Source: Clostridia bacterium (lineage in GTDB: Bacteria > Bacillota > Clostridia > Oscillospirales > Acutalibacteraceae). Taken from it: a stretch of DNA of 64,000 nucleotides. How positions within the stretch are numbered: the stretch's first letter is position 1; each line of letters begins with the position of its first letter. Shown piece after piece: positions 23,561 through 61,290 of the stretch. The translations under genes and the position numbers were made by a program. The stretch is from NCBI GenBank assembly GCA_017937865.1, contig JAGBCU010000018.1, forward strand, positions 1 to 64,000. Direction: 5' to 3'. The notes beneath the pieces were generated by a model. It was not told the DNA's origin and searched no databases. It was given only the letters and a program-made list of their open reading frames with translations.

Positions 23561-23764
23561 GCATCTTTATAATTGCGATATACAAGCGGGGCTTGTGCGA
23601 TATATTTTGTTACACAAAATGCGATATATTTCGCTACGCTCAATGCGATATGATATAAATCCTTACTGTTCTCGTGCCGCAGGCACATATCGCACCGTAG
23701 GTATATCGCGTACAAAGTACATATCGCAAATCCGTCAGGATTTATATCGCGGTGCGACAGCACC
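23561..23764. repeat. hairpin array with four GCGATAT and four ATATCGC linkers
   Basis: GCGATAT occurs at 23575, 23597, 23621 and 23645; ATATCGC at 23687, 23703, 23721 and 23744. Nearly every interval is a small hairpin: ACAAGC/GCTTGT, ATTTTGT/ACAAAAT, GTGCC/GGCAC, ACC/GGT, GTAC/GTAC, AAATCC/GGATTT and finally GGTGC/GCACC. The two halves also pair: 23652-23662 is an exact 11-bp inverted match to 23738-23748. It fills the space between two convergent gene ends. No gene is present. It could be a repeat element or a structured RNA. Confidence 0.85.
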
Positions 23765-23772
23765 ATTATACC

Positions 23773-24123
23773 TTACTTATTCATAACTCCTGCCCACCAA
23801 TAGTAGATGGGGATGAATAAAAACATTATCCACGTGTATTTCCAAAGACCTATTGTAAGACCGATAGTAAGAAAAGCGGTAACTATAACAAGAGGAATAG
23901 GTAAAGCTAAAAGAAAGCCTCTTTTAGTTTTAGCGCCAACGGCACCGCAAAGCTGATAGTAAATCGGTATAAATAAAAATGCAATCCAGGTAGGGTGCCA
24001 GATATGAGTAAGCATACCGAAAGCAACGTATGCGATAGGAATTATAAGAAAAACGGGAACTTTAAGCATTTTGCTTTTTGCACCGGGGAAAATACCGTCA
24101 GGAAATTGAACGTTTTTAGCCAT
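23773..24123 (-). CDS. hypothetical small membrane protein with internal duplication
   Basis: A 116-residue protein with about four membrane spans. Two halves repeat each other: WHPTWIAFLFIPIYY near residue 45 and WKYTWIMFLFIPIYYWW near residue 97, so it probably arose by duplication of a two-span unit. The N-terminal ~20 residues are polar. GGAGTTC lies just before the ATG. It is a single gene on the minus strand between the hairpin array and the divergent sugar transporter. Function unknown. Confidence 0.75.
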   Translation of the reverse strand: MAKNVQFPDGIFPGAKSKMLKVPVFLIIPIAYVAFGMLTHIWHPTWIAFLFIPIYYQLCGAVGAKTKRGFLLALPIPLVIVTAFLTIGLTIGLWKYTWIMFLFIPIYYWWAGVMNK

Positions 24124-59423: not shown

Positions 59424-60656
59424 ATGGATTTAATTGTTATAGGTGGCGGTGCCGCAGGTCTTATGGCTGCAGGCACGGCGGCACAAAGAGGCTTAAGTGT
59501 AACGCTTATTGAGAGAAATGACAAATTGGCAAGAAAGGTTGCTATAACCGGTAAGGGCAGATGTAACGTAACTAACTCTTGCCCTCTTTTAAATGAGTTA
59601 ATATCAAACGTACCTGTTAACGGCAGATTTCTTTACGGTGCGTTTTCAAGATTCAGTACAGATGATACAATAGACTTTTTTGAAGAAATGGGCGTACCTC
59701 TTAAAATAGAAAGAGGGAACAGAGTTTTCCCCGTTTCCGATAAAGCTCTTGATATCGTTGATGCCCTCAATAAATTTATTACCGTGAACGGTGTAAAACG
59801 CAAGCAGGGTAGGGTAACTGAGCTTATAATTGAAAACGGTGCTCTCAAGGGTTGCATAACTGAGGACGGAAGAAGGTTTTATGCCGATAACGTGCTTATA
59901 GCAACGGGCGGTCTTTCTTATCCTGCAACGGGCTCAACGGGTGACGGCTATACCTTAGCCCGTCAGGCAGGTCATACAATTACTGATTTAAAGCCTTCTC
60001 TTGTATCGCTTGAATGTCACGAGGGTTGGTGTACTGATGCTCAAGGGCTCTCTCTTCGTAACGTTGAAATAAGAGTAGAAGACACGAAAACTTATAAAGA
60101 AATTTACAAGGATTTCGGTGAAATGCTCTTTACCCATTACGGCGTTTCAGGTCCTATGATTCTTTCTGCATCCTCTCATATGAGAAATATGGAAAAGGGT
60201 AGATACGTAATTCATATAGATTTTAAGCCTGCATTAACCTACGAACAGCTTGACAAAAGAATTCAAAGAGATTTGCTTGAATGCTCAAATAAAAACCTTT
60301 TCAATACGCTTTCTCTTATGTTACCGCGAAAAATGATACCGATTGCGGTTAAGCTTTCAGGTCTTAACGGTAATATAAAATCTAATCAGGTAACGAAGGA
60401 TATGAGAGCTTCACTTGTTGATTTACTTAAGGATATACGCCTTACAGTAACTGATTTCAGACCTATAGACGAAGCGGTTATAACCTCAGGCGGTGTAAGC
60501 GTTTCTGAAATTGACCCTAAAACAATGGAAAGCAAAATTCTTAAAGGACTTTACTTTGCAGGCGAGGTTATAGATGTTGATGCCTATACAGGCGGCTTTA
60601 ATCTTCAAATTGCATTTTCTACAGGCAGACTTGTTGGAAACTCTGTTTCCAAGTGA
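59424..60656 (+). CDS. FAD-dependent oxidoreductase, BaiN/HI0933 family
   Basis: A 410-residue flavoprotein. The dinucleotide loop is IVIGGGAAGLMAAGTA, followed by ARKVAITGKGRCNVTN, a family hallmark, and the C-terminal FAGEVIDVDAYTGGFNLQIAFSTGR. One member (BaiN) reduces bile-acid intermediates, but most members have no known substrate, so no such claim is made. GGAGAT precedes the ATG. Its stop codon lies within the first heptamer of a repeat array. Confidence 0.88.
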   Translation: MDLIVIGGGAAGLMAAGTAAQRGLSVTLIERNDKLARKVAITGKGRCNVTNSCPLLNELISNVPVNGRFLYGAFSRFSTDDTIDFFEEMGVPLKIERGNRVFPVSDKALDIVDALNKFITVNGVKRKQGRVTELIIENGALKGCITEDGRRFYADNVLIATGGLSYPATGSTGDGYTLARQAGHTITDLKPSLVSLECHEGWCTDAQGLSLRNVEIRVEDTKTYKEIYKDFGEMLFTHYGVSGPMILSASSHMRNMEKGRYVIHIDFKPALTYEQLDKRIQRDLLECSNKNLFNTLSLMLPRKMIPIAVKLSGLNGNIKSNQVTKDMRASLVDLLKDIRLTVTDFRPIDEAVITSGGVSVSEIDPKTMESKILKGLYFAGEVIDVDAYTGGFNLQIAFSTGRLVGNSVSK

Positions 60657-61255
60657 GGAGTTAGGAGTGGGAAGTGAGGAGTGTCGGGACCTGCGGTCGG
60701 CACTGTAAGCTTCGCAAAAGAGAAGATAAGACTGTGTGATTATTTTGGAATATAAAGAGGTGCGTTATGGCATCGATAGTATATGATAAAAGTAAAGTTT
60801 TCGCTTTGCGGATAGTTAAATTATATAGACATTTGAATTCTCAATATAATGAAACTGTTATTTCAAAACAATTGTTGCGTTGCGGAACAAGCATTGGTGC
60901 AAACATAACAGAAGCTGAATATGCAATAAGCAAAAGAGAATTTGTTATGAAAATGTATATTGCATTAAAAGAGTGTGGCGAAACAATTTATTGGTTAGAT
61001 TTGCTGTTTGACAGTGAATATATAACAGAAAAGCAGTATCGTTCTATAAAGAGTGATTGTGAGGAACTGATGAGATTATTATCATCAATAACTAAAACCG
61101 CACGTGAAAGATTAAACAAAACTAAATATGAAGGTTTTTAAAACGTTCATTTGATTAGTGAGTGAATGATAAAGAGGAAAAAGAGTAGTTGTCAGATATA
61201 AATGGATATAATAGCGTCGCAGACCCGACACTCCTCACTCCTCACTCCTCACTCC
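60655..61255. mobile_element. heptamer/inverted-repeat element carrying a four-helix-bundle gene
   Basis: Left side: GAGGAGT, TAGGAGT, GGGAAGT, GAGGAGT (60655-60682), GTCGGG, then AGCTTCGCAA (60708-60717). Right side: GTCGCAGACCC (61216-61226), then CACTCCT three times plus CACTCC (61229-61255). GTGAGGAGTGTCGGG (60674-60688) and 61224-61238 are exact 15-bp inverted copies. The only gene inside is the 124-residue one at 60767. Confidence 0.7.
60767..61141 (+). CDS. four-helix-bundle protein (23S rRNA IVS-protein family)
   Basis: A 124-residue, all-helical protein. The pattern VFALRIVKLYRHL near residue 9, LLRCGTSIGANITEAEYA, and the ALKECGETIYWLDLL segment match the TIGR02436-type four-helix-bundle family first seen inside intervening sequences of 23S rRNA genes; Avd proteins of diversity-generating retroelements are related. 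Members may bind nucleic acid. Here it sits in a protein-gene spacer, flanked by inverted repeats and heptamers, with AAAGAGGTG before the ATG. No reverse transcriptase is seen. Confidence 0.85.
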   Translation: MASIVYDKSKVFALRIVKLYRHLNSQYNETVISKQLLRCGTSIGANITEAEYAISKREFVMKMYIALKECGETIYWLDLLFDSEYITEKQYRSIKSDCEELMRLLSSITKTARERLNKTKYEGF

Positions 61256-61290
61256 AAACTTATACAACAAGCATCAAAGGAGAAATAATT

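Follow-up and report, generated by a model that had tools for sequence, protein, structure and literature searches.

What is the cluster of small hairpins and recurring 7-base words that occupies a 190-base stretch (23575..23764) of the window, i.e., of the whole 64,000-nt piece of DNA analyzed here? Its neighbors are an HD-type gene on one side and a membrane-protein gene on the other, and it carries no gene itself. An earlier note on this DNA had left three possibilities, namely, a structured RNA, a protein-binding array, or a replicating repeat; the last two proved best supported, while small RNA stands only as a rival. We favor, with a probability of roughly 60%, the reading that the array is a non-autonomous copy of a mobile hairpin-array element associated with the 23S-rRNA intervening-sequence protein (IVP), which would recognize the linker word. 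Membership of the array in such a family and the association of this family with IVP are very probable; the mechanism of recognition and mobilization by IVP is plausible at slightly under even odds.

Anatomy and folding of the window array

The array is on the minus strand when arm A is read first. Its features are as follows.

23575..23764, minus strand: whole A-B hairpin-array element, arm A first, probably a non-autonomous copy (~17 copies in its own genome; 11-copy alignment)
23674..23764, minus strand: arm A, hp0-L-hp1-L-hp2-L-hp3-L-hp4, with four GCGATAT linkers (L) (sequence; solo A copies elsewhere)
23682..23752, minus strand: sub-threshold match to Rfam Gut-1 (RF01706), 32.2 bits, E-value 4e-4, gathering cut-off 50 (sister loci exceed the cut-off)
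23575..23651, minus strand: arm B, three hairpins and four opposite-sense linkers, ATATCGC on the minus strand (sequence)
23751..23764, minus strand: hp0, hairpin GGTGCGACAGCACC (sequence; 11-copy alignment)
23744..23750, minus strand: arm A linker 1 (linker search)
23728..23743, minus strand: hp1, AAATCC-loop-GGATTT (sequence; covariation)
23721..23727, minus strand: arm A linker 2 (linker search)
23710..23720, minus strand: hp2, GTAC-loop-GTAC (sequence; covariation)
23703..23709, minus strand: arm A linker 3 (linker search)
23694..23702, minus strand: hp3, ACC-loop-GGT (sequence; covariation)
23687..23693, minus strand: arm A linker 4 (linker search)
23674..23686, minus strand: hp4, GTGCC-loop-GGCAC (sequence; covariation)
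23652..23662, minus strand: inner closing arm, GGATTTATATC on the minus strand, pairing with GATATAAATCC at 23738-23748 (11-copy pairing)
23738..23748, minus strand: pairs with the inner closing arm, comprising part of linker 1 and the 5′ stem of hp1 (11-copy pairing)
23645..23651, minus strand: arm B linker 1 (linker search)
23628..23644, minus strand: B hairpin 1, imperfect (sequence)
23621..23627, minus strand: arm B linker 2 (linker search)
23604..23620, minus strand: B hairpin 2 (sequence; covariation)
23597..23603, minus strand: arm B linker 3 (linker search)
23582..23596, minus strand: B hairpin 3, ACAAGC-loop-GCTTGT (sequence; covariation)
23575..23581, minus strand: arm B linker 4 (linker search)
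23773..24123, minus strand: host gene directly upstream of arm A, 116-aa membrane-type protein (ORF list)

The four GCGATAT sites (23575, 23597, 23621, and 23645) and the four ATATCGC sites (23687, 23703, 23721, and 23744) reported in the earlier note all lie exactly there. Across the 64-kb window, 22 linker matches were found, compared to 6.6 in shuffles, and 8 of these 22 fall inside 176 bases. The description of nearly every interval as a self-complementary hairpin holds for all six linker-to-linker intervals, which have terminal stems of 6, 7, 3, 3, 4, and 6 bp (the shuffle probabilities multiply to ~1.7e-14), but not for 23652-23673, which is not a hairpin and contains GATATAAATCC (plus strand, 23652-23662), whose partner is GGATTTATATC at 23738-23748. 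Two extra hairpins, GTGCCGCAGGCAC (23674-23686) and GGTGCGACAGCACC (23751-23764), are also part of the array. Read from arm A on the minus strand of the window, hp0 to hp4 with their linkers are followed by a short spacer, GGATTTATATC, and arm B, in which three hairpins separate four reverse linkers. The most variable hairpin among copies is hp0, which at some loci is the host terminator itself; in the window, the stop codon of the host gene (23773..24123) lies 9 bases from hp0, on the same strand as arm A.

As a single strand, the array folds with z = −4.7 (RNA) and z = −5.6 (DNA) relative to shuffles, and the optimal fold pairs A linkers with B linkers, as anticipated by the suggestion that the halves can fold on each other. 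Two other explanations were discarded: a coding role, since the two array-crossing ORFs (112 and 81 aa) are mechanical and the array is the repeat itself, and CRISPR, since the intervals are short and self-complementary and the linkers have 7 bases.

The array is one copy of a dispersed, structure-conserved element

In pattern searches, which also supplied all other per-genome array counts, the genome that contains the window (G000; 2.15 Mb, 95% complete) yielded 47 forward and 38 reverse linker-interval-linker matches, with 0 for a reversed-pattern control. These matches group into ~17 places (13 A-B and 4 solo A), and most of the A-B copies are 88–97% identical, yet lie beside unrelated genes. 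In an alignment of 11 copies, standard pairs account for 94.5% of cells (23–47% for slid-partner controls), 14 of the 39 pairs show two-sided changes, and the inner closing helix is paired in 100% of cases, with one pair changed on both sides. Across the genus, in 133 distinct intervals, Watson-Crick pairs make up 92.5% of the outer three base pairs when each stem keeps its own arms, versus 41.6% when arms are swapped (1,000 swaps; swapped maximum, 49.1%). The proposal that structure is kept while sequence changes is therefore borne out by the 14 doubly changed pairs and by the arm swaps; the absence of compensatory stem changes or of any other copy had been set to count against selection for the structure, but compensatory changes and many other copies were both found. 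This compensatory pattern can be produced either by structural selection or by palindrome-correcting template switching.

A scan of GTDB genomes returned at least 119 stretches, and true-hairpin intervals occur in 72 among the matches listed. Among the 72, those with a title are all clostridial, most of them from rumen or gut, and in 5 of the 72 an IVP gene lies at most 700 bases away; the matches in other phyla, again among those listed, are chance matches without hairpins.

One seven-linker array (L242, 1401-1506, minus strand) consists of alternating duplicated hairpin units, ACCTACGGT and ATCTGCGAT, which suggests tandem growth of hairpin-linker units.

IVP genes adjoin the arrays

In two of the G000 copies (contigs C11 and C36), as well as in copies of G005, G006, G009, G014, and G017, an IVP gene follows directly after arm B. 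The gene encodes an S23-type 23S-rRNA intervening-sequence protein (PF05635, E-value 1e-22) that matches a solved five-chain protein (chain 2rld, E-value 3e-23); a Xanthomonas IVP homologue is a homopentameric torus (PMC4990558). A recognized nuclease or recombinase domain is absent from IVP, which weighs against the mobile reading. Most of the IVP-bearing copies are ordered A-B-IVP-A, with a second arm A past the gene, and these parent-like composites sit between ordinary genes or after tRNAs. In one of them (L024, 2688-2930), a small second gene (DUF7225, PF23870) separates the IVP gene from the second arm A.

Genes with PF05635 are present in 20 of 22 congeneric genomes (~108 matches). Of 98 extracted IVP genes, 46 within one clade adjoin hairpin-linker arrays, with adjacency judged by word counts and by reading of uncertain cases. 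In the open-access literature, on which the novelty of this real and unusual array is judged, nothing was found to connect IVP proteins with hairpin-linker arrays. IVP genes inside cas loci and associations with CRISPR adaptation have been reported (PMC3936711, PMC10910872); such cas-locus genes would fit stray insertions.

Linker words follow IVP clades

The linkers mostly fit roughly RYGAWRT, with one main word per array, and the words diversify with the IVP clade. In the IVP tree, nearly each word corresponds to one clade, that of GCGATAT comprising 9 genes (support 97), and the word labels require 9 changes (minimum 8), compared to a shuffled mean of 35.1, with 0 of 200 shuffles as low. 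Because array and IVP gene are adjacent, this match could come from co-inheritance alone. Gene-less copies elsewhere in the genome carry the same linker word, and, with species relatedness ignored, GCGATAT arrays are commoner in genomes with an IVP of the GCGATAT clade (p = 4.5e-4), as are GTGATAT arrays in genomes with the matching IVP (p = 1.9e-3). Moreover, in a TCGATAT version present in G007 and G012, the hairpins are nearly unchanged and almost all linkers of both arms have switched together. The word shared by gene-less copies, the array numbers, and the TCGATAT version go further than mere physical linkage. Against this, two draft genomes hold many arrays with no matching IVP: G018 (93% complete), with 18 GCGATAT and 37 TCGATAT matches, and G011, with 18 GTGATAT matches. 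A hybrid at L238 (~1414-1600), with arm A linkers mostly GCGATAT and arm B linkers ATATCGA, hints at arm exchange between linker families.

The match to IVP clades bears on the idea that the arrays are REPIN/RAYT-like elements moved in trans by a Y1 (IS200-type) transposase. The arrays share with REPINs a miniature size, dispersal as intergenic palindromic repeats, a conserved word, compensatory stems, and a partner protein that co-evolves (PMC3116915), and three Y1_Tnp genes exist in G000. However, whereas REPs flank RAYT genes, an array lies beside 0 of these 3 Y1 genes, and linker diversity tracks IVP instead, which makes the involvement of a Y1 transposase highly unlikely; assignment to REPIN-RAYT proper was likewise rejected for want of a repeat-flanked Y1 gene. 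The partner here is IVP rather than a Y1 transposase, and the repeat is a two-arm multi-hairpin array with a 7-base word rather than a REP doublet. By analogy, the array may nevertheless work as REPIN-RAYT does, as a miniature repeat moved in trans.

The elements prefer sites behind terminators and stop codons

The elements show a preference for positions immediately 3′ of a terminator, hairpin, or stop codon of the host. Where an aldo-keto reductase gene ends, its stop codon is followed by a GCGATAT A-B element in G000, a TCGATAT A-B element in G007, and GTGAAGT arrays in G014 and G018; at this site, a short-tandem-repeat element is present in G012 and G020, and no element in G009, G011, and G019. 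Behind the T-tract of one tRNA-Lys terminator, a single position holds an element of a different linker family in each of G000, G012, and G020, and the IVPs that these three elements carry come from different parts of the tree; here, G021 has an element without a gene, G009, G010, and G013 have an IVP element of another kind, and G011, G015, and G016 are empty. Different linker families at one tRNA-Lys or reductase spot are best explained by independent insertions into a preferred spot. Furthermore, a tRNA lies within 260 bases upstream at 17 of 44 hairpin-IVP loci, codirectional in 17 of 17. Orientation relative to terminators was uninformative (18 codirectional versus 19 reversed) because host terminators are symmetric.

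It counts against the favored reading that neither target-site duplications nor circles or excision scars were observed; between species, the sites are too diverged for the junction to be read. Similarly, when the elements are compared with MITEs, both the parent-like A-B-IVP-A form and filled and empty sites exist, with junctions too diverged for a duplication to be read. At the orthologous HD-gene site of the window copy, there is no clean empty site, the downstream gene not being conserved there.

Alternatively, the arrays could be passive: cruciform-forming hairpins that spread by slippage and template switching, with IVP genes hitchhiking to preferred sites. Tandem hairpin-linker growth, as in the seven-linker array of L242, the ability of template switching to give rise to perfect palindromes, and the quite different repeat context of other IVP clades are all in keeping with this. 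It leaves unexplained the constant A-B anatomy, linker words that are uniform across eight positions and matched to the IVP clade, and the occurrence of three linker families at the same base past one tRNA terminator; we therefore regard passive spread as improbable.

Arm A resembles the Gut-1 RNA

The earlier note knew of no RNA family with this design; in fact, arm A has the design of Rfam Gut-1 (RF01706), i.e., three hairpins joined by UGAAAU-type linkers. The window copy, which uses another linker, scores 32.2 bits, below the gathering cut-off of 50 bits. Sister arrays with UGAAAU linkers in the same genome reach up to 78 bits, sister arrays with other linkers score 50–78 bits, eight other G000 copies exceed the cut-off, and matches at or above it occur at eight IVP loci of the genus. 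Gut-1 and the arrays share the three hairpins, the UGAAAU-type linkers, and an origin in gut bacteria, several of the above-cut-off arrays adjoining IVP genes, whereas Rfam models only half of the element, and as an sRNA. Hence, Gut-1-type arms occur within a two-armed dispersed element. Gut-1 was known from gut metagenomes only and was rated "certainly" RNA by Weinberg and co-workers, whose main text assigns it no function (PMC2864571).

These data raise the possibility that the arrays are structured noncoding RNA, either a Gut-1-type sRNA or a 5′ leader of the IVP gene, bound by IVP for autoregulation, with the dispersed copies acting as sRNA genes or sponges. The listing of the related arm as an sRNA and its rating by the authors (PMC2864571), the strong RNA fold with compensatory changes, and the position of the arm B end, which in composites just precedes the Shine-Dalgarno sequence of the IVP gene, speak for it. 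On the other hand, arm B linkers are antisense, and complementarity between A and B linkers is maintained, which is needless for a sense-strand RNA-binding site; the ~17 nearly identical copies occupy unrelated loci, at sites that relatives have empty, as expected of a repeat and not of a gene, and they are frequently found behind terminators. On balance, a noncoding RNA appears unlikely.

How IVP may mobilize the arrays

Returning to the mobile element, the IVP ring would recognize the 7-base linker displayed between adjacent hairpins, either in a folded single strand or in cruciform DNA, where A and B linkers are able to pair. IVP would then bring the element ends close to each other, and host enzymes would copy the element, or move it, to another site immediately behind a hairpin resembling a terminator. 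The two IVP genes of the GCGATAT clade (C11 and C36) may act in trans to mobilize A-B copies like that of the window. Should IVP indeed move elements, it would count as a mobility factor that lacks any recognized transposase fold, and, since linker word and clade match so closely, its specificity is directly testable by binding of protein versus word.

Integron attC sites are folded, single-strand-type sites, to which the direct copy flanking the gene (A-B-gene-A) can be likened, by analogy only; the arrays here consist of many hairpins with a constant linker. Another comparison is with the 23S rRNA IVS, a small element with complementary ends and the same IVP/S23 protein family, the mobility of which was suspected by Ralph and McClelland in 1993, as cited in PMC4990558. 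The composites, unlike the window copy, contain an IVP/S23 ORF; neither lies inside a 23S rRNA gene, and the arrays differ from IVSs in lying between ordinary genes and ending in hairpin-linker arrays. A classical 23S IVS was therefore rejected. Avd, an accessory protein of diversity-generating retroelements, falls into the same conserved-domain family as PF05635 and is similar to it (PMC10053308). Mobilization in cis by such a retroelement or reverse transcriptase was rejected, since a search for PF00078 in G000 (95% complete) gave no match.

The mobile-family reading suggests an account of the orphan Gut-1 RNA of gut bacteria as well. It would tie together three orphans: an Rfam RNA left without a function since 2010; the widespread IVP family, suspected as a mobility factor of rRNA insertions since 1993, though with no demonstrated mode of action; and abundant unexplained repeats of gut and rumen Clostridia. 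More tentatively still, the arrays could form a mobile-element class of their own: an IVP/S23 ring that is itself catalytically silent would read the word and direct host-enzyme copying behind terminator hairpins, Gut-1 would be one arm, and IVPs, in 23S rRNA and elsewhere, would be diversified mobility factors.

Other repeat elements at IVP genes and shared sites

Most of the remaining IVP genes among the 98 lie between inverted short-tandem-repeat arrays, and many congeneric IVP genes are flanked by GGCAAATGGCAAGT, AATGCAGAATGCAG, GGAAACAGGAAACAG, and others. This second kind of IVP element is also present in the window (60640-61260), where an IVP gene (60767-61141, plus strand) is located between AGGAGTTAGGAGTGGGAAGTGAGGAGTGTCGGGACCTGCGG and inverted GACCCGACACTCCTCACTCCTCACTCC. 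In the same genome (L046, C3:7758-8075), an IVP gene of another clade with an in-frame stop codon lies between inverted repeats of the CAGATGCCAG type. IVP-less inverted short-tandem-repeat elements are found downstream of the HD-gene orthologue (L216, L217, L218, L221, L211, and L208), and some of the repeat elements of congeners at this site have a common core (ATTCTATCATTT...AAATGATAGGATAA). Past tRNA-Lys, L382, L383, L381, and L376 contain partial copies, in tandem, of the tRNA-Lys 3′ end, a terminator, and a "GGGCAGAGCCC" hairpin repeat.
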